From Maritalea mediterranea (GTDB taxonomy: Bacteria; Pseudomonadota; Alphaproteobacteria; Rhizobiales; Devosiaceae): a stretch of DNA of 64,000 nucleotides. The notes beneath the pieces were generated by a model. It searched no databases, was not told the DNA's origin, and saw nothing but the letters and a program-made list of their open reading frames with translations. This document shows positions 53,136 to 64,000 of the stretch, piece after piece (within the stretch, counting starts at the first letter, position 1; the number at the start of each line of letters is the position of its first letter). A program made the position numbers and the translations under genes. The stretch covers positions 434,001 to 498,000 of the forward strand of contig NZ_JAKGTI010000002.1 in the NCBI RefSeq assembly GCF_021568695.1, read 5' to 3'.

Positions 53136-54551
53136 ATGGCACAACGAAAAATCTTTGCAGGCGTCAAACTTCGCGCGCTTCGGGAGCAGCAAAAACTAAC
53201 CCAGGCCGAATTCGCCGCGCGGCTGGATATTTCCACCTCTTACGTCAACCAGCTTGAAAACAATCAACGCCCGGTCACTGCGGCGATCATGTTGTCGCTG
53301 GCGGAAAACTTTAACGTCGATGTGACCAGCCTGCTCGCCGACAAGTCGGACCGGTTGATCATCGATCTGAAAGAGATATTTGCCGACCCGCTTTTTGCCG
53401 ATAACCCCCCGGGACTGCAGGAACTGAAATCCCTCGCCACCAACACGCCGCAAACCGCCCACGCCTTTATGCGGCTATATGAGGCCTATCGAAAATCCAA
53501 TGAGCGCATGGCCGGGGTGGACGATGTGCTGATGCGCGAACAGGCGGGCAATCTGCAAACCTCTTATGAAGAGGTGCGCGACTTTTTTCATTATGCCGAC
53601 AATTATATCGATCCGCTGGACCGCGCGGCCGAAGATCTTGCCATCGAGCAAGCCCTTGATGGCCACGACAAAATGGACAGGCTCGTCAAATATTGCGAGC
53701 GGGTGCACGATTTGACTGTGGAGTTTGTCATGCCCAACAAGCGCGACATGATCCGGCAATTTGACCGGACACGGCGCGTGATCCGCCTCAACACCACCTT
53801 GGACAAATCAACCCAGTTTTTCCAACTCGCCAACCAACTGGCACTGCTGGAACAAACCTCGCTGATCAATCAGATTTTGACCGATGCCAATTTCAAGCGT
53901 GACGAAGCCCGCGCCATCTGCCGCATCGGGCTGGCCAACTATTATGCGGGAGCGCTGCTGATGCCCTACACTCAGTTTTTGAAGGAAGCGCAGACCGTGC
54001 GCTACGACATCGAAATCATGGCGCAACGCTTTGGCGCCAGTCTGGAGCAAGTCGCCCACCGCCTCTCCACCCTGCAGCGCCCGCAATTGCGCGGCATTCC
54101 GTTTTTCTTTGCGCGGGTGGATCAGGCAGGCACCATCACCAAGCGCCACTCGGCCACAGCCCTTCAATTTGCCCGGTTCGGCGGCGCCTGCCCCCTGTGG
54201 AATGTGCACCGCGCCTTTGAATCGCCGCAGCGGATCATCCGCCAGCGCGCCGAAACACCAGATGGCAAACGCTATTTATGCCTGGCCTGGGCCAGCGAAA
54301 AACGCGCCGGCGGATTCCGCCAGCCCACCCGCCGCTACGCCTATGCGCTGGGCTGCGAAATCGACCATGCAAGCGAACTGATCTATTCCGACGATCTCGA
54401 TATTGGCGAAGATGCCGCGTTCGACCCGATCGGCATTTCCTGCCGCACCTGCGAACGCCGCCACTGCACCCAACGGTCTGTGCCGCCCATCGCCGCCGAA
54501 ATTTCCATCACCCCGGATGAACGCAGCGTTGTGCCGTACGAAATTAACTAG
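53136..54551 (+). CDS. pccR: PccR/ScfR-type regulator (XRE-HTH, degenerate ImmA/IrrE, DUF2083)
   Basis: A 471-residue short-chain fatty acyl-CoA-responsive regulator. The XRE helix-turn-helix is at about 10-62 (KLTQAEFAARLDISTSYVNQ). A middle domain resembles ImmA/IrrE, but the HExxH zinc site is absent (FQLANQLALLEQ in its place). A C-terminal DUF2083 part follows, with CRTCERRHC. In Rhodobacter, PccR lies beside pccB and activates it when propionyl-CoA accumulates; the divergent position is the same here. Start at 53136 has AAAGGAAGCCGGAAA upstream. Confidence 0.9.
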   Translation: MAQRKIFAGVKLRALREQQKLTQAEFAARLDISTSYVNQLENNQRPVTAAIMLSLAENFNVDVTSLLADKSDRLIIDLKEIFADPLFADNPPGLQELKSLATNTPQTAHAFMRLYEAYRKSNERMAGVDDVLMREQAGNLQTSYEEVRDFFHYADNYIDPLDRAAEDLAIEQALDGHDKMDRLVKYCERVHDLTVEFVMPNKRDMIRQFDRTRRVIRLNTTLDKSTQFFQLANQLALLEQTSLINQILTDANFKRDEARAICRIGLANYYAGALLMPYTQFLKEAQTVRYDIEIMAQRFGASLEQVAHRLSTLQRPQLRGIPFFFARVDQAGTITKRHSATALQFARFGGACPLWNVHRAFESPQRIIRQRAETPDGKRYLCLAWASEKRAGGFRQPTRRYAYALGCEIDHASELIYSDDLDIGEDAAFDPIGISCRTCERRHCTQRSVPPIAAEISITPDERSVVPYEIN

Positions 54552-56213: not shown

Positions 56214-56867
56214 ATGACGAAGGCGCACACAACCGATCCGCAACATAAATGGCATGAAGACATTCAGGCCGTGCTTTTGGGTACGCTGCTGATCGCGCTG
56301 GGCGTCACCATGTATAAAACCGCTATGCTGGGCACCGGCGGCATTAACGGGCTGGCGCTGCTGCTCTCCTATATTTCGCCGCTGGAATTTGGTCTGCTGT
56401 TCTTTGCGCTCAACCTGCCCTTTTATTGGTTTGCCTATGTACGCATTGGCCCCGCCTTCACCATCAAGACCTTCGCCTCTGTGGGCCTGGTGTCGCTGTT
56501 CGCTCAACTCACACCGCAATGGATCAGCTTTGACATGCTGCACCCGCTTTATGCCAGCGTGATCGGCGGCGGGATTATCGGCGTGGGCCTATTGATCCTG
56601 TTTCGCCACAAATCCGGCTTGGGCGGCGTGAATATTTTGGCGGTATACCTGCAAGATCGCTATGGCATTCGCGCAGGCTATTTGCAAATGGGCGTGGACG
56701 CGGCCATTTTATGTGGCTCCTTCTTCATCCTCACCTGGCAACAAGTCGGCTTATCGGTGTTGGGCGCGGTGGTGCTCAATCTGGTGATCGCCACCAATTA
56801 CCGGCCCGGCCGCTATGTCGGCTTTTCCGGCGCATTTTTTGCCCAAAGCAAAAAGAAAGAGGATTAG
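56214..56867 (+). CDS. YitT-family membrane protein
   Basis: A 217-residue DUF161/YitT protein with five or six membrane helices. Markers: QAVLLGTLLIALGVTMYKTA (about 19-38), GTGGINGLALLLSYI, and the late GGVNILAVYLQDRYGIRAGY. Transport substrate unknown. Start at 56214 (MTKAHTTD), with ACAAAGGCGAACAT upstream, preferred over 26 codons earlier. Its end overlaps the convergent sensor-kinase stop by 4 bases. Confidence 0.9.
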   Translation: MTKAHTTDPQHKWHEDIQAVLLGTLLIALGVTMYKTAMLGTGGINGLALLLSYISPLEFGLLFFALNLPFYWFAYVRIGPAFTIKTFASVGLVSLFAQLTPQWISFDMLHPLYASVIGGGIIGVGLLILFRHKSGLGGVNILAVYLQDRYGIRAGYLQMGVDAAILCGSFFILTWQQVGLSVLGAVVLNLVIATNYRPGRYVGFSGAFFAQSKKKED

Positions 56868-59578
56868 ACCTCGCCCTCATAAAGCGGCAAGCTGACACGA
56901 AAACAGGCGCCAAAGCCATCGCCCTTGACCAACTCAATCTTGCCCTTCATCCGCGCAATGATCTGCGATGAAATGGCCAATCCGAGCCCGGAACCGGTTT
57001 GCCCGCTCGTAGCCCCGCGCTGGCCACGGGCGAACTTTTCAAAGACACGGCGACGTTCTTTCGCCGCGATACCTGGGCCGTTATCCTGAAACTCTATCAA
57101 AAGCCGTTTGCCGTGGTTGCTGAACCGCACTTCGACATAAGGATGTGGTTCGTCATTATATTTGATGGCATTGGTGATCAGATTGATGAACACTTGCGCC
57201 AGTCGGTCCGCATGCCCCAACACCATCGCCTGCGCGGGCACATTGTGGCGCCTGATCTGCATATTTTTCGGCCGCGCCAGACTTTCACAAACTGAGACCG
57301 CCCGATCCATCGCGTCCACCACATCGACCGGCGCATTGGTCCAGACTTTTTCGCCCCGCTCCAAGGCACTCAGATCCAAAATTTCGTCCAACAATTGGGT
57401 GAGCCGCAAACTCTCCGTGTGAATGGTGGACAAAAAGCGTTGCCGGTCTTGCTCGTCCAACTCTTCTGGCTCCAGCAGGATTTCAGAGAAGGAGCGGATC
57501 GATGTCATGGGGGTGCGCACTTCATGGCTGACCTGCGACAAGAACTCGTCCTTTTGCTGGTCCAGCTCGCGCAGTTTGGCATTGGCATCCTGCAGCTTTT
57601 CCGCGGTGAGCCGAAGTTCTTCCGATTTCTGTTCCAACTGCTGCGAATATTCGATCACCTGCTGGGTTTCGTCAGCAATCTTCATCACTTCCTGCAAGGA
57701 AATATTGTCGCCGGACACCACTTGCGAGATCATGACGTGCGCCGAGGCGGCACCAATCGAACCGGCCAGCTCTTTTTCCAGCAGTGCGATAAACTCTGGT
57801 GTGGGTTCAAGGTTGGTGCGGCTGCGCCCCTGCTCGCGGGCAAAGCTGTCAAACACCGCCCCTGCCCGCTCGGCCCCCAACACCCGTTGCGCCACAAAGA
57901 ACAAATCATTGGTGGCTGCAGACGTGCGCATAAACCGGGTTTCAATGCCCGGCATACGGCGAAACGCATCCACAAACAGTGCGCTTTGAATACGCTCCAA
58001 CACGCTTTGAGACGTGGAAAGCGACACCAGCACAAGGGCAACCGTATTGGCGAAAAGACTCCAGAACACGGAATGAACCAGCGGATCCATCCCCGTCAGG
58101 CCGAACAGGGCCTGCGGTTTTAAAAACTCAATGCCATAGGGGCCGTTTTGCACCCATTGCGCCACACTGATGCTGGATTCTTCGAAGCTGGGCAAAAACA
58201 TGGAATAGGCCCAGACCACAAAACCGATAAACAGCCCGGCCCCGGCGCCCTTGGCCGTTGCATCGCGCCAGAACAGGGCCGCCACAATGGCAGGTAAGGT
58301 CTGTGCGACACCGGCAAACGAAATCAACCCGATCAGCGCCAGTGCACCGGAGCCGTTGGTGAGCCAGAAATATAAAAAGCCCAACCCCAAGATCACACAG
58401 ATGGAAATACGACGGCTGGTGAGCAGCAAGTCGGTGACCCCGCCCCCCTCGTCATCATCACTGCGGCCGGGCAGGCGCAGGGCGATGGGCACCACAATAT
58501 GGTTGGACACCATAATCGACAGGGCAATCGAGGCGATGATAATCATGGAGGTGGCTGAAGAGAATCCGCCAATAAAGGCGAACAGCGCCAAACCCTCCTG
58601 GCCAAAATTAAGTGGAAGGGTGAGCACAAACATATCCGGATCGCTGCCCGGCGGCAGCATCGCCGTGCCCACGATCGCGATGGGTAAAGTGAAGATGCTC
58701 ATGGCGAACAAATAGAGCGGGAAGGCCCAACTGGCCGTGCGCAAATGGTTTTCGTTAGAGTTTTCCACCACCGTGATCTGGAACTGGCGCGGCAGGCAGA
58801 TAATTGCCGCAGCCGACAAGATGATCATGGCCACCCAGCGCGAGTTGAACCCGCCATATTCAAAGGCGTTGATCTGCGCCGCATCAGCACGAGCAAACAC
58901 TTCTGAAAATCCATCGCCCAGCCCGTACACCACAAATATGCCGACAGCCAAAAGGGCAATAAGCTTGATGATCGCTTCAAACGCAATCGCAGCCACCACC
59001 CCGTGATGCTGCTCTTTTGCATCCACATTTCGGGTACCAAACAAAATGGTGAAGATGGCCATAGCGACCGCCACGCCAAGCGCCAGGCGCACATCATCCA
59101 CATTCAGACCCGGCTGGTCCACATTGACGCCCAGCGTCATCACATTCAAGCTGGTGGTGATGGCTTTGAGCTGCAACGCAATATAGGGCGTTGTGCCAAT
59201 CACCGCGATCAAGGTCACCAACACCGCCAGCCGCGAGCTTTTGCCAAAGCGTGAGGAAATCAAATCCGCCAGCGAGGTGATCCGCTGGGTACGGCCCACC
59301 CGGACCAACTTGCGCAGGCCAAACCACCAGCCGACAAAAACCAGTGTGGGCCCGAGATAAATCGTAAAAATCTCATAGCCCGTGCGCGCCGCCGAACCCA
59401 CGGCACCGTAAAATGTCCAGCTGGTACAATAAACAGAAATCGCCAGCGTGTAGATAAGCGGCGAGCGCAAAAACTTGCCGGCCTCTCCCTTGGCCCAGCG
59501 CTCGCTGAAATATGCCAGCGCAAACAGCAGCACCACATAGCCCAGCGCAATCAGAATAATCAGATTGGTGGGAATCAT
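56864..59578 (-). CDS. SLC5-STAC histidine kinase (CrbS/CbrA-like)
   Basis: A 904-residue sensor. Residues about 1-500 form a sodium/solute-symporter-like (SLC5) module of some 13 helices, including AYFSERWAKGEAGKFLRSPL. A STAC-type linker follows (about 530-620), then a coiled coil (QQLEQKSEELRLTAEKLQDA). The DHp has SHEVRTPM with phospho-His 685, and the ATPase has NLITNAIKYN, FQDNGPGIA and GSGLGLAIS. No receiver is fused. The symporter half may transport or only sense a carboxylate; CrbS-type kinases act on acetate metabolism. Confidence 0.95.
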   Translation of the reverse strand: MIPTNLIILIALGYVVLLFALAYFSERWAKGEAGKFLRSPLIYTLAISVYCTSWTFYGAVGSAARTGYEIFTIYLGPTLVFVGWWFGLRKLVRVGRTQRITSLADLISSRFGKSSRLAVLVTLIAVIGTTPYIALQLKAITTSLNVMTLGVNVDQPGLNVDDVRLALGVAVAMAIFTILFGTRNVDAKEQHHGVVAAIAFEAIIKLIALLAVGIFVVYGLGDGFSEVFARADAAQINAFEYGGFNSRWVAMIILSAAAIICLPRQFQITVVENSNENHLRTASWAFPLYLFAMSIFTLPIAIVGTAMLPPGSDPDMFVLTLPLNFGQEGLALFAFIGGFSSATSMIIIASIALSIMVSNHIVVPIALRLPGRSDDDEGGGVTDLLLTSRRISICVILGLGFLYFWLTNGSGALALIGLISFAGVAQTLPAIVAALFWRDATAKGAGAGLFIGFVVWAYSMFLPSFEESSISVAQWVQNGPYGIEFLKPQALFGLTGMDPLVHSVFWSLFANTVALVLVSLSTSQSVLERIQSALFVDAFRRMPGIETRFMRTSAATNDLFFVAQRVLGAERAGAVFDSFAREQGRSRTNLEPTPEFIALLEKELAGSIGAASAHVMISQVVSGDNISLQEVMKIADETQQVIEYSQQLEQKSEELRLTAEKLQDANAKLRELDQQKDEFLSQVSHEVRTPMTSIRSFSEILLEPEELDEQDRQRFLSTIHTESLRLTQLLDEILDLSALERGEKVWTNAPVDVVDAMDRAVSVCESLARPKNMQIRRHNVPAQAMVLGHADRLAQVFINLITNAIKYNDEPHPYVEVRFSNHGKRLLIEFQDNGPGIAAKERRRVFEKFARGQRGATSGQTGSGLGLAISSQIIARMKGKIELVKGDGFGACFRVSLPLYEGEV

Positions 59579-59826
59579 CTATCTTGATCCCGATCAAAGC
59601 GCTCGAGGCGCTGTGGCGTTTCATCCTGTTGTGGCAGCCATCGCGAAAGGATGAAGGCCGCGACAATTAAGAAAAGCCACACACCGAAAATGTAGGTGAA
59701 AATGATAGGCAGGCCAAAAACGCTTCCACCGCGATCAAATAATTGCACAATCGGCGGCATGATCAGAATGACACCCAATATGGGCAGAAAAAATCCAAAG
59801 CCCTCGCTGCGCCGCCGATTCGCCAT
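59575..59826 (-). CDS. Two-helix membrane protein between kinase and receiver
   Basis: An 83-residue protein with two hydrophobic segments (about 10-28 and 36-60) and a polar, charged tail (QDETPQRLERFDRDQDR). It overlaps the kinase by ATGA and the receiver by TGATG. Small companions of SLC5-type carriers are known in other families (for example DUF4212), but I do not recognise this as one. Its tight packing suggests it works with the sensor. Confidence 0.8.
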   Translation of the reverse strand: MANRRRSEGFGFFLPILGVILIMPPIVQLFDRGGSVFGLPIIFTYIFGVWLFLIVAAFILSRWLPQQDETPQRLERFDRDQDR

Positions 59827-60209
59827 CAGTTCACCCTTTGCTGGTCCCCGATCAGGGCTCTGACGGCCCCCACAACATCAGAATTGGCATAGGGCTTGGT
59901 CACAAAGCTGTTGGCCCCCAACTCTTCGGCAATGCGGCGGTCTTGTGCTTGGCCTTTGGCCGTCAGCATCAGAACCGGCAGATTTACGGTCTGCTCATCC
60001 TGCCGCAACAATTTGAGCACCTCAAAACCGGATTTTTTCGGCAACATGACATCCAGCACAACAACGCGCGGCTTGATTTCACGCACTGCTTTCAAGGCGG
60101 CCTCCCCATCCTGCGCCGATTGGGTCGACCATCCAGCGCGCCGCAAAATAAAGTCGAGCGAGTCCAGTATACTGGGCTCGTCCTCAACAATAAGGACATC
60201 TATGGTCAC
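59826..60209 (-). CDS. Single-domain response regulator
   Basis: A 127-residue CheY-like receiver with all key residues: acidic pocket E9-D10, phospho-Asp 53 (VVVLDVMLP), Thr 83 (LTA) and Lys 105 (VTKPY). No output domain. Start is GTG at 60209 (MTIDVLIVEDEPS), preceded by GCGAGGAGGAGGAATTT. Natural partner of the SLC5 kinase. Unlike CrbR or CbrB it cannot bind DNA alone, so it must signal through another protein. Confidence 0.93.
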   Translation of the reverse strand: MTIDVLIVEDEPSILDSLDFILRRAGWSTQSAQDGEAALKAVREIKPRVVVLDVMLPKKSGFEVLKLLRQDEQTVNLPVLMLTAKGQAQDRRIAEELGANSFVTKPYANSDVVGAVRALIGDQQRVN

Positions 60210-60271: not shown

Positions 60272-61897
60272 TCACGCCTCGCCAATATCGAAATTAATAT
60301 CGGTTAAGGGCAAGCGCACAGTATGCGTCTCACTCGCCCCCGTAAACATCTCCTCTTGTCGACTTTCGCATGAGCGTCGAATGCACATGCGGCACGTGGG
60401 GCCGACCGGCACATCAACCTGCGGATTATCCAAATTCATGCCCCGGCCATAAACCGTCTGGTCGGCGTAAAGCACATCCGAAACCAGCATCACCGAGGTA
60501 TAAAGCGGCCGCGACTGAAATCGGTCTGCGCGCTTGGCAAAAGACTTGGCCAACATCAAATAACGGCCGCCATCGGGATAGCTCACTGTTTGCCGCACCA
60601 CTTCATTGGGATGGCGGAAAGCGTCAAACAATGTCCAAAGCGGGCAGCCATGCCCCGCATTGGGCCACGCCATGCCGGGTAAGGGAAAATGCTTCGACAA
60701 ACGCCCTGAAGGATCGGCGCGCAAGAATCCAAATGGAATGCCTTCAGCGCCAGGACGACGCAGGGTCACCAGCCGATGTGCCACCTGCTCAAAACTGGCC
60801 GCATAGCGCTGGCTCAAATAATCAATATCATAAGAGCTTTGCTCTGCCTCCTGCAAAAAATCATCGTAGGGAAAAATCAACGCGCCCGCCAAATAAGACC
60901 CTAAAGCCCGCACTGCCAGCCGACGGGCCGCGGCTGAACTAAGCCGCGCATCACTGGCAAGCTCAATGAGCAGATCGCGCGCTTTCAACTCACCATAAAG
61001 CCGCGCCAGTTGAAATTGCCGTGTCGCCAGCGTCGCACTGCCTTGAAACCACAAGACCTTATCGGACGCATCATAACGATATTGCATGGGGAACCCGCTA
61101 TCAGATCGGGACAATTGCGCGACACGTTTCGCTTCTATGCCAAACTCGTCGTGTAATTGCGCCGCCAAATCCGCTTCCAATACGCTGCCGCGTTTTTCAA
61201 ATCTTTTCCGCATTTCATCAGCCGCCTCTTCAAGCAAAGGGAAATAATTCTTCTCCTCAACAATCAGATCATCCAATTCCCGCGCTGGGGTGAGGGAGCG
61301 GTTGCGCCCCGCCTCCCCCTCAAACTGATTGATCAACGTCTGCGCGACGTCAGAGAGCGCCCGGCTTTCTTGCGACACCATTTTATGAAAGCGCTGTTGC
61401 TCCAAAACCTCCAAATCAGGCACGTCCGTCAAAATTTCCGCAGAAGACCGTACGGCCGTGATTTGCGACAACATCTGGTGCAGCAAATCTGCCAAAAGCG
61501 GATCAGATTTAAGGCGATTGGAATATGCCTCAGCCTCGGCCACCGCTTCAGCATAAGCCCGGTAGGTTTGGTGCAACGCCCGGGCCGCGCGGGGGTTGGT
61601 CGCCACCAGCTCCCGTGCATCCTCCGCCCCCATTTTGAGTGATTCTAAAGCCGGGTCAGAAAAAATTTCTTCTAGCGCACTGAGCAATCTTTGCTCATTC
61701 TCGCCGGTCAATTCGTCTAATGCGACATCTAAGTTTTGCGCAATTGATTGCAACAGCGTGCCGCCCACATCACGCTTATTGGCCTCAATCAGGTTGAGAT
61801 AGCTGGGCGAAATACCCAGCATTTTGGCAAAGTTGCTCTGGGAGTAACCCAAAGATTTCCGCTGGTTACGGATTTTCAATCCGATCGGCGCCCGCAT
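60272..61897 (-). CDS. ScfR-type regulator with degenerate DHp-like insertion
   Basis: A 541-residue relative of the PccR-type protein at 53136. XRE-HTH at about 8-62 (LGYSQSNFAKMLGISPSYLN), ImmA/IrrE-like middle without HExxH, and DUF2083 with CRMCIRRSC. It is 70 residues longer because residues about 134-193 resemble a histidine-kinase DHp hairpin (ITAVRSSAEIL..LEQQRFHKMVSQESRALSD). The phospho-His position holds no His (LSQITA). First gene of the operon with the receiver, small membrane protein and kinase. Start at 61897, with GGGGAGATTTGAA upstream. Confidence 0.88.
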   Translation of the reverse strand: MRAPIGLKIRNQRKSLGYSQSNFAKMLGISPSYLNLIEANKRDVGGTLLQSIAQNLDVALDELTGENEQRLLSALEEIFSDPALESLKMGAEDARELVATNPRAARALHQTYRAYAEAVAEAEAYSNRLKSDPLLADLLHQMLSQITAVRSSAEILTDVPDLEVLEQQRFHKMVSQESRALSDVAQTLINQFEGEAGRNRSLTPARELDDLIVEEKNYFPLLEEAADEMRKRFEKRGSVLEADLAAQLHDEFGIEAKRVAQLSRSDSGFPMQYRYDASDKVLWFQGSATLATRQFQLARLYGELKARDLLIELASDARLSSAAARRLAVRALGSYLAGALIFPYDDFLQEAEQSSYDIDYLSQRYAASFEQVAHRLVTLRRPGAEGIPFGFLRADPSGRLSKHFPLPGMAWPNAGHGCPLWTLFDAFRHPNEVVRQTVSYPDGGRYLMLAKSFAKRADRFQSRPLYTSVMLVSDVLYADQTVYGRGMNLDNPQVDVPVGPTCRMCIRRSCESRQEEMFTGASETHTVRLPLTDINFDIGEA

Positions 61898-61920: not shown

Positions 61921-61972
61921 TTTGTAAAAAATTTTACAAGCATTTGTAAATTTAAGTACACATTTTTACAAA
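61921..61972. promoter_or_regulatory. Phased TTTGTAAA operator array in the divergent promoter
   Basis: Four half-sites: TTTGTAAA (61921-61928), TTTTACAA (61932-61939), TTTGTAAA (61943-61950) and TTTTACAAA (61964-61972). Starts are 11, 11 and 21 bases apart, near multiples of one helical turn. They resemble the TTTGCAAA element of PccR. Location: 24 bases before the ScfR-type start and about 120 before the Liv binding-protein gene. Confidence 0.6.
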
Positions 61973-62092: not shown

Positions 62093-63439
62093 ATGACTGA
62101 ACGCAATGATGGCCCTTCACGCCGTCGAGTTCTTAAGGGTGCCGCTGCTGGTCTCGTGACCGCCGGTGTTGCCCCCACCATAATCACCAGTGCGTACGCC
62201 CAGGAATATCGGAACAAGCCAACAGGCGACACCGTGACCCTTGGCTTCAACGTGCCGCAAACCGGCCCTTACGCTGATGAGGGCGCTGACGAGTTGCGCG
62301 CTTACGAATTGGCCGTTGAACATTTGAATGGCGAGGGTGACGGCGGCATGCTGACCACCATGCAGCCATCAAACCTGACCGGGAATGGCATCCTGGGCAA
62401 AAAAGTTGCCTATGTGACGGGTGACACACAAACCAAATCAGACGCAGCGCGGGCATCTGCCAAGCGGATGATTGAAAAAGACGGCGCCTTGATGATTACA
62501 GGTGGTTCGTCATCTGGTGTGGCTGTGGCTGTGCAAAGTTTGTGTCAGGAAATGGGCACCATCTTTATGGCTGGCCTGACCCACTCCGATGACACAACTG
62601 GTAAAGATAAGCGGCGTTATGGTTTCCGGCACTTCTTTAACACCTATATGTCCGGTGCCGCCCTTGGCCCTGTGTTGTCCGATGAATATGGCAATGAGCG
62701 TCGGGCCTATCACCTAACAGCCGACTATAACTGGGGTTACACTCAAGAACGCGCCATGAAGGACTCGACCGAAGCGATCGGTTGGGAAACCGTGAACACG
62801 GTAAAAACCCCTGTGGGCGCCGGTGACTTCTCTCAATATATCACCCCTGTGTTGAACTCAGGTGCTGACGTATTGATCCTGAACCACTATGGCCGCGACA
62901 TGGTGAACTCCTTGACTCAGGCCGTTCAGTTCGGTCTGCGTGACAAGCAGGTTAACGGCAAAAACTTCGAAATCGTTGTGCCGTTGTTCTCTCGTTTGAT
63001 GGCGCAAGGTGCTGGCGACAACATTAAAGGCATTTTGGGTTCAGCGAACTGGAACTGGTCACTGCAGGATGAAGGTTCACAAGCGTTTGTGAAATCCTTC
63101 GGCGCCAAATATGGCTTCCCACCCTCCATGGCAGCCCATACCTGCTATGTACAAACCTTGCTTTATGCCGATGCATGCGAACGCGCAGGCACCTTCTATC
63201 CGCCTGATGTGATCCGGGCATTGGAAGGCCACAAGTTTGACGGCATGGGCAATGGCCCAACTGAATATCGTGCAGCTGACCACCAGTGCTTCAAGAGCGT
63301 GCTGGTTGTGCGCGGTAACGCCAACCCAACATCTCAGTTTGACCTTCTCGAAGTGGTACAAGAAGTGCCGCGCGAACAGGTTGAGTATGATCCCGCAATC
63401 TTTGGCGGCGAGTTGGGACCTTACGAAGTCGCAATGTAA
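62093..63439 (+). CDS. Liv-type ABC transporter substrate-binding protein (Tat-exported)
   Basis: A 448-residue periplasmic binding protein of the branched-chain amino acid (HAAT) family. The N-terminus has a twin-arginine signal (SRRRVLKGAAAG, 9-20) leading to an A-Y-A-Q cleavage near 35. The first lobe starts VTLGFNVPQTGPYADEGADE; HHxH-type binding residues cannot be assigned. Substrate unknown; divergence from the ScfR operon suggests a short-chain acid or related compound rather than leucine. Ribosome site AAAGGAGGAGAATA is very strong. Confidence 0.92.
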   Translation: MTERNDGPSRRRVLKGAAAGLVTAGVAPTIITSAYAQEYRNKPTGDTVTLGFNVPQTGPYADEGADELRAYELAVEHLNGEGDGGMLTTMQPSNLTGNGILGKKVAYVTGDTQTKSDAARASAKRMIEKDGALMITGGSSSGVAVAVQSLCQEMGTIFMAGLTHSDDTTGKDKRRYGFRHFFNTYMSGAALGPVLSDEYGNERRAYHLTADYNWGYTQERAMKDSTEAIGWETVNTVKTPVGAGDFSQYITPVLNSGADVLILNHYGRDMVNSLTQAVQFGLRDKQVNGKNFEIVVPLFSRLMAQGAGDNIKGILGSANWNWSLQDEGSQAFVKSFGAKYGFPPSMAAHTCYVQTLLYADACERAGTFYPPDVIRALEGHKFDGMGNGPTEYRAADHQCFKSVLVVRGNANPTSQFDLLEVVQEVPREQVEYDPAIFGGELGPYEVAM

Positions 63440-63514: not shown

Positions 63515-64000
63515 ATGGACGCGATTCTACTACAATTATTAAACGGGTTGGACAAAGGCGGCGCCTATGCGCTGATCGCTTTGGGCCTAACCCTCGTTTT
63601 CGGCACCTTGGGTGTTGTAAACTTCGCCCACGGCGCATTGTTTATGCTCGGCGCATTTTGTGCTGTTGCCTTGCGTAAATTACTGACCCTTGAAAAGGTC
63701 GTTCTGGATACAGAAAATCTGACGGCATGGGGAACACCAACAGAAATACGCACCCCCTATGTGGAGACCTGGTTCGGCGAATTCGGTGCCGTGCTGGTCA
63801 ACTATTCTGTGCCACTTTCCATTCTGGTCGCCATACCGGTTATGCTCGTCATCGGCGTAGCGATGGAGCGCGGTTTGATCAAACATTTCTACCGCCGCCC
63901 GCACGCTGAGCAGATTTTGGTGACCTTCGGTCTCGCCATTGTGCTTCAAGAAGTGATCAAGCATTTCTTTGGCGCGAACCCGATTCCGCAGCCCATGCCT
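63515..64000 (+). CDS. Liv-type ABC transporter permease LivH (cut by window end)
   Basis: The first 162 residues of an inner-membrane permease. The frame is open to the last base. MDAILLQLLNGLDKGGAYAL, then ALGLTLVFGTLGVVNFAHGA (about 22-41) is the LivH signature, and AEQILVTFGLAIVLQE follows. A 40-residue polar insertion (about 58-95) separates helices 2 and 3, longer than in LivH of enterics. Ribosome site GGGGGGAGTAACCAC. The second permease and ATPases should follow outside the window. Confidence 0.93.
   Translation, partial: MDAILLQLLNGLDKGGAYALIALGLTLVFGTLGVVNFAHGALFMLGAFCAVALRKLLTLEKVVLDTENLTAWGTPTEIRTPYVETWFGEFGAVLVNYSVPLSILVAIPVMLVIGVAMERGLIKHFYRRPHAEQILVTFGLAIVLQEVIKHFFGANPIPQPMP

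Follow-up and report, generated by a model that had tools for sequence, protein, structure and literature searches.

The window, by which we mean the whole stretch of 64,000 nucleotides of Maritalea mediterranea that was analysed, holds on its minus strand the neighbouring genes of a transcription factor of the ScfR type, a stand-alone receiver and an SLC5-type sensor histidine kinase, and, divergent from the regulator gene, the beginning of a liv-type ABC transporter operon (Table 1). The SLC5 part of the kinase was assigned from sequence, and Pfam gave no match over that part. This kinase ends without a C-terminal receiver, the receiver being a separate gene; CrbS carries a C-terminal receiver (PMC5715377). 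Beyond the window, an acs gene follows the liv genes in the same genome, all these names being taken from sequence and not from a family scan. For comparison, 122 loci were collected (6 from early searches, 80 from genome contigs and 36 from a class sample), two of which are more than 97% identical to another. A gene for a liv-type substrate-binding protein accompanies ScfR in 114 of the 122, and an acs-like gene lies within the retrieved stretch in 27. Boxes of the type TGTAAA/TTTACA, which occur four times between the regulator and transporter genes of the window, are found at least once in 107 of 114 equivalent intergenic regions against a background of 0.06 per 300 bp, the commonest spacings being 32, 10 and 41-42, and may serve as the operator.

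Table 1. Features of the window and of three comparison loci, with the basis of each assignment
Feature	Position	Strand	Basis or remark
PccR-type paralog without DHp insertion (comparison)	53136..54551	plus	471 aa
SLC5-type sensor histidine kinase, HisKA 675-742, H685 (57524-57526), HATPase_c 789-900	56864..59578	minus	Pfam; SLC5 part from sequence
Stand-alone receiver, phospho-acceptor D53 (60051-60053), no output domain	59826..60209	minus	Pfam, alignment
ScfR-type transcription factor with inserted DHp	60272..61897	minus	541 aa ORF; Pfam and AF2
DHp (HisKA-type) insertion, residues 132-203	61289..61504	minus	BLASTP, AF2, Foldseek, comparison with PrpR
Codon of H140 (CAC), phospho-acceptor position	61478..61480	minus	Alignment with kinase H685
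Four TGTAAA/TTTACA boxes, scfR-transporter divergent intergenic region, candidate operator	61923..61970	.	Motif count
Substrate-binding protein, first gene of liv-type ABC transporter operon, divergent	62093..63439	plus	Sequence, no family scan
LivH-type permease, cut by window end	63515..64000	plus	Name from sequence
PAS/DHp-like/RNase_T gene	L258:10016-12139	minus	Between receiver and kinase
PAS/DHp-like/RNase_T gene	L259:4164-6263	plus	Between receiver and kinase
PAS/DHp-like/RNase_T gene	L261:4151-6226	plus	Between receiver and kinase

ScfR proteins are short-chain fatty-acyl-CoA regulators. The open reading frame of the regulator agrees in its coordinates with the original prediction, and its product is 89% identical to those of the nearest named genomes, Maritalea mobilis and M. 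myrionectae. It consists of an HTH_3 domain (residues 9-63), linker helices, a DHp segment (about 132-203), a Peptidase_M78/IrrE-like domain (274-376) and the ScfRs C-terminal domain (PF09856, 378-519). The HTH_3, M78/IrrE-like and ScfRs matches all lie above the Pfam cut-off, and C418, C502, C505 and C510, which we take to be cluster ligands, are at least 90% conserved among 119 sequences, so that domains and cysteines alike place the protein in the ScfR family. It is not a RamB equivalog, since it reaches 294 bits with the model NF038139, below the cut-off of 700 bits. Nor is it a histidine kinase or a response regulator itself: Pfam found no HATPase_c and no Response_reg domain in the regulator, and the residue following the aligned histidine is Q141 and not an acid. 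In residues 64-273 Pfam reported nothing except one sub-threshold restriction-enzyme match. Binding of CoA esters has been shown for RamB of Paracoccus (PMC10370305), and by analogy we propose that the C-terminal domain of the window regulator may sense a CoA ester.

Residues 132-203 of the regulator are a HisKA-type DHp hairpin within a standard ScfR scaffold. PrpR covers by sequence residues 67-131 and then 204-514, with 10 residues in between where the regulator has 72; the hairpin has therefore been inserted where the ScfR linker helix ends. It is missing from the PccR-type paralog too, which is, as had been predicted, about 70 residues shorter; hence the segment is not an ordinary linker common to all ScfR proteins. 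In BLASTP, residues 113-190 align with residues 656-735 of the SLC5 kinase (28% over 80 aa; E=4e-05, a figure for one comparison), and an ungapped BLOSUM62 comparison of a 60-residue DHp stretch with the kinase scores 74, the best of 400 shuffles reaching 38. The resemblance to the kinase of the same operon, from which the original prediction had started, is thereby confirmed. Family models recognise the segment to a varying degree. For the regulator of the window, NCBIfam gave a kinase match below cut-off (CreC model, residues 136-212, E=2.2e-4) and Pfam HisKA (PF00512) no match at E<=1. HisKA was found at E<=0.1 in ten of ten chosen divergent orthologs and passed the gathering cut-off in four of them (L165, 1e-9, with an H box reading HELRT; L171, 3.5e-8; L168, 5.8e-8; L172, 1.3e-7); at E<=0.01 it was found in just 3 of 23 nearer relatives. 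One ortholog (L023, on the same contig as L029) carries a run of VTEN repeats between the DHp and the sensing domain.

An AF2 model of residues 66-215, built from a 79-sequence alignment, has a mean pLDDT of 77 and places helices at 133-157 and 164-199/200 after a long helix at 102-131, which corresponds, at moderate confidence, to the two-helix hairpin of a HisKA/DHp domain. In the full-length model, which matches the PrpR structure 6CYJ with E=1.6e-26, pLDDT amounts to 39-72 per block over residues 131-200. The first 11 Foldseek matches in the PDB are histidine kinases, nine of them HK853, with probabilities up to 0.99 and weak E-values (best 0.32). VIA superposes model positions 67-134 on HK853 252-320 with a Z of 9.4, H140 landing on HK853 H260 if the one-residue gap falls after H140; since unrelated hairpins score alike, that of PhiC31 integrase reaching 9.3, we take this score as support for the geometry only.

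Among the 26 HisKA matches of the window genome, some of the weaker of which are aligned outside a true H box, the best score with a profile built on the ScfR DHp is that of the SLC5 kinase (52.6 bits, E=4e-16), and the next match reaches 12.0. With this profile the SLC5 kinase could be detected in 19 of 20 genomes searched, and in 18 no match outside ScfR scored higher, the exceptions being a 223-aa ORF above the kinase in one genome (G235) and the lack of a kinase match in another (G068). The two DHps are thus specifically related. In 100 ScfR/kinase pairs, positions D-8, L-5, H0, T+7, R+10, S+11, E+14, I+15, L+16, F+30 and L+41 are identical in 82-97%, and E+1, R+3 and P+5 of the kinase are replaced in the ScfR DHp. 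A stripe of T+7, R+10, S+11, E+14 and I+15 is common to both, in which +11 and +15 correspond to A271 and T275 of HK853. The interface residues named in PDB titles of HK853 are A268, A271, T275, V294 and D297 (+8, +11, +15, +34 and +37 from H260), and ScfR and kinase agree there in 27, 88, 94, 71 and 73%, respectively. Another kinase (L271) also has four of the five stripe residues, yet scores 3.1 bits with the ScfR DHp profile. At the shared DHp positions of the 100 pairs, ScfR and kinase from one genome do not resemble each other more than those from different genomes, so the likeness is a family-wide one and not a pairing signal; mutual information between DHp and receiver (113 ScfR and 101 kinase pairs) is led by columns that resemble phylogenetic markers, and neither comparison yields a direct coevolution signal. 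The phosphate-accepting part of the neighbouring kinase, its histidine included, appears to have been built into the regulator. Judged from the alignments, the ScfR DHp seems to have retained the phospho-acceptor and the surface for the receiver while giving up the features of autokinase type.

The alignment with the kinase runs without a gap through the DHp (HQMLSQITAVRSSAEIL vs. HEVRTPMTSIRSFSEIL in BLASTP) and puts H140 on H685, so the histidine is present. The original prediction, whose quoted alignment starts after this residue, had considered the phospho-His to be missing, an error that led it away from phosphotransfer. Histidine occupies position 140 in 120 of 129 orthologs, as is characteristic of the phospho-acceptor of a HisKA/DHp domain, the others having F (4), Q (3), Y (1) or L (1). 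With redundant sequences down-weighted (Neff 28.6), H0 is conserved to 86%, the eleventh highest value of the 57 DHp positions; R+10, S+11 and E+14 are likewise within the eleven most conserved, and T+7 falls to 75%. Lost instead of the histidine are the acid at H+1 and the proline at H+5, and the ATPase domain is absent. The residue after the histidine is E in 9 of the 129 and drifts among Q/R/E/A/G/S/K/T. The lineages without histidine keep a recognisable DHp, as in L166, which still matches HisKA with E=0.001. A natural point variant is found in Devosia sp. FKR38 (L062, 8001-9620), where His is changed to Leu though receiver and kinase adjoin.

D53 and a T or S at position 83 are present in every one of the 114 receiver rows from these loci, and K105 in 113, the window's own being counted twice. 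With one exception, all of 113 locus receivers end within 17 residues of the end of the window receiver; the exception, on a truncated contig (L175), is longer by an OmpR-like part, and the gene is probably unrelated. A stand-alone receiver at most 1.5 kb and an SLC5 kinase at most 6 kb from ScfR are present in 103 of the 122 loci, and in six more both lie slightly further, five of the six being transcribed towards ScfR. When the truncated loci L068, L081 and L175 are left out of the linkage count, 109 of the remaining 119 show both genes no further than about 5 kb away and ten are unlinked. The idea that this architecture always neighbours a receiver without output therefore applies to the great majority of loci but not strictly. 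All ten genomes of the unlinked loci carry an SLC5 kinase and a stand-alone receiver elsewhere; in four loci of one genus (L166, L167, L169, L170) the pair is about 8 kb away, past the transporter-acs genes, L159 adjoins a receiver with no kinase within the stretch, and L154 has a receiver 2.9 kb off.

In 385 genomes of the class, the kinase was detected (E<=1e-200) in 53 and the long form of ScfR by profile in 38, one of the latter (G300) being judged from the match pattern only. The kinase is present in 37 of these 38 genomes, and the 38th (G104) is 68% complete. Sixteen kinase genomes gave no ScfR profile match; seven of them hold divergent ScfR-DHp members, which came to light by inspection of the genes beside the kinase and all keep the histidine, and in nine no ScfR-DHp was seen in the 11-15 kb around the kinase. 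In one of the seven, at L254:9464-10915, the ScfR-DHp gene directly adjoins the SLC5 kinase, and no receiver was found in the 15-kb stretch. Among the matches at E<=1e-80 in a 398-genome sample of the phylum, which is no census, none of the long form lies outside Alphaproteobacteria; the plasmid records gave one match at E<=1e-60, a 1.17-Mb replicon of Neorhizobium.

The histidine is absent in 7 of 10 unlinked and in 2 of 109 linked loci (Fisher p 7e-8, a value which ignores relatedness). On a tree of 67 rows there are four changes of His, and an independent-pairs test is not significant (median p 0.5); we regard the tie between the histidine and an adjacent receiver-kinase pair as suggestive. 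Loss of His through loss of the two-component pair was considered as well and rejected, as all but one of 14 genomes checked have the SLC5 kinase, the exception being the incomplete G104; in the ten unlinked genomes, the receiver adjoins the kinase. Because the genomes of the seven loci that are both unlinked and without histidine still have kinase and receiver, phosphotransfer would not be obligatory everywhere.

From these observations, a pathway leading from the SLC5 kinase via the bare receiver to the DHp of the ScfR transcription factor is rather to be expected than not. Sequence comparison supports a two-component input into this ScfR-type XRE factor through its DHp surface, and here the original prediction stands: the DHp resembles, within this genome, only that of the partner kinase, shares the stripe with it and adjoins a receiver without output. 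The small receiver probably passes the kinase signal straight to the regulator. In such a pathway, a DHp hairpin related to that of the partner kinase would have entered an ScfR protein at the end of its N-terminal linker helix. The kinase would respond to a substrate outside the cell (acetate or a related short acid, if CrbS is a guide), autophosphorylate at H685 and then phosphorylate D53 of the receiver. Receiver~P would dock onto the dimeric ScfR at its DHp, using the face with which it contacts the kinase, a step which we hold to be likely, and in the main lineage would then hand its phosphate to H140, for which the chances appear evenly balanced; where the histidine has been lost (9/129), it would only dock, as in DivL. 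The contact would alter the geometry of the ScfR dimer and thereby how it binds the TGTAAA boxes that lie between scfR and the transporter-acs genes, an effect that would act together with the sensing of a CoA ester in the C-terminal domain. The direction of control, the ligand and the operator of the regulator are in this scheme what we infer.

The alternative that survives best is docking without phosphotransfer, which coincides with the favoured pathway in its first step and is possible, if clearly the less probable course. Here receiver~P would be sensed allosterically by the DHp, in the manner of DivL and DivK~P, and H140 would be no more than a part of the docking surface. In DivL a Tyr replaces the His, and the exchange Y550H does not reduce binding of DivK~P (PMC4211667). 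The persistence of the DHp in lineages with F, Y, Q or L at position 140 fits this reading, but a histidine kept in so many orthologs while the next residue drifts is surprising for a mere docking surface. Transfer is thus favoured in the main lineage, where the His is conserved, and docking in the lineages where it is gone. Far less probable is a phosphatase or sink, by which the DHp would drain receiver~P and the transcription factor would feed back on its own kinase pathway. Position H+4, which we take to be that of the catalytic Thr/Asn of HisKA phosphatases, is indeed S/T/N in 126 of 129 orthologs. However, the HisKA phosphatase motif E/DxxT/N includes the acid at H+1, which only the nine orthologs mentioned have kept, and the location of a DHp within a DNA-binding protein would be left unexplained. 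A relic, i.e. a vestigial insertion that merely extends the dimerisation coiled coil, is slightly more improbable still; it would accommodate the four changes of His and the fact that 7 of the 9 non-His rows are loci apart from the receiver-kinase pair, but not the rank of H, R+10, S+11 and E+14 among the most conserved positions after weighting. Least probable is a heterodimer of ScfR with the SLC5 kinase by DHp-DHp pairing, the other proposal of the original prediction, for which we found no evidence beyond the specific relation of the two DHps. With core and receiver-facing positions assigned as in HK853-type structures, what the two have in common extends beyond core-type positions to the polar stripe T+7, S+11 and E+14, and several core-type positions differ (M+6 vs. 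I/V).

Returning to the pathway from kinase through receiver to regulator, the arrangement can tentatively be described, with a little less than even confidence, as an inverted two-component layout, in which the receiver is bare and an acyl-CoA-sensing factor, phosphorylated on His by receiver~P, would join a signal from outside (SLC5 kinase) with one from inside (CoA ester). Single-domain receivers occur widely, often with no target assigned to them. If the pathway is true, this bare receiver gains a specific and testable transcriptional target, and a rule follows for other targets, namely to search neighbouring genes other than kinases for a DHp that is related to that of the partner kinase. 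A one-component metabolite sensor would have been wired into a two-component pathway by insertion of a single domain of about 70 residues, which would explain how an SLC5 kinase with an output-less receiver can control uptake loci in Alphaproteobacteria.

A protein of a different type was observed near the bare receiver and the SLC5 kinase, composed of PAS, a DHp-like segment with E, S or T instead of the His, and an RNase_T-type exonuclease. Its gene is present in 7 of 9 sampled genomes that have the kinase but no ScfR-DHp beside it (loci L258-L264), and also in L291, L168 and L171, the matches in the last two not covering the DHp-like segment. Pfam HisKA matched one of three scanned proteins with E=0.01, and the reading as DHp rests on alignment. 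This protein could possibly be a second DHp-bearing output of the same receiver; a second output derived from the kinase would make the DHp as receiver adaptor a general device of the SLC5 kinase family.

In an open-access library, which leaves out most subscription papers, we recognised by title and opening of the abstract no published description of an XRE/ScfR or other DNA-binding regulator with a DHp. DHp or HisKA segments without a working kinase are already known from ChpT and archaeal proteins. With the ScfR family (RamB, PccR, MccR/PrpR) the regulator shares the HTH_3, M78/IrrE-like and ScfRs domains, and the PrpR structures 6CZ6, 6CYJ and 6CYY match its residues 204-514 by sequence; it differs from the family in the 72-residue DHp in place of the 10 residues of PrpR. 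Spo0B is a kinase-like, free-standing histidine phosphotransferase that feeds a separate response regulator, and DivL is not a DNA-binding regulator. ChpT, too, is a kinase-like histidine phosphotransferase, free-standing and feeding a separate response regulator (PMC3433190). In Caulobacter, the DHp of DivL is reused to read the single-domain receiver DivK~P, with Tyr at the His site and the CA domain present (PMC4211667), which provides a precedent for reading a receiver without transfer. A precedent for the transfer step from receiver to DHp is given by MrrA of the same organism, a single-domain receiver that gives its phosphate to the His of PhyK and LovK, both acting as phosphotransferases and not as kinases; from PhyK the phosphate travels onward, LovK serves as a drain for it, and both belong to the HisKA2 subfamily with a CA domain and are not transcription factors (PMC5964349). 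Archaeal proteins with HisKA and a conserved His but no ATPase domain are described with PAS/GAF sensor domains, and among those in the available text of the report there is no fusion to a DNA-binding domain (PMC5847659). In the Paracoccus study of the ScfR network, the protein Pden_1785 is noted to cluster with two-component genes and, in the available text, is not taken further (PMC10370305, the one paper in which a search for this locus tag found it); our guess is that it is an ortholog of the window regulator. CrbS/R, CbrA/B and RpuS/R, finally, comprise SLC5/STAC kinases of the same family as the window kinase, and growth on acetate requires CrbS/R, in Sinorhizobium fredii as well (PMC9100948, PMC5715377). 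There, according to the available text, CrbR is itself a LuxR-type activator, whereas the receiver of the window is bare and it is the output protein that carries the DHp.
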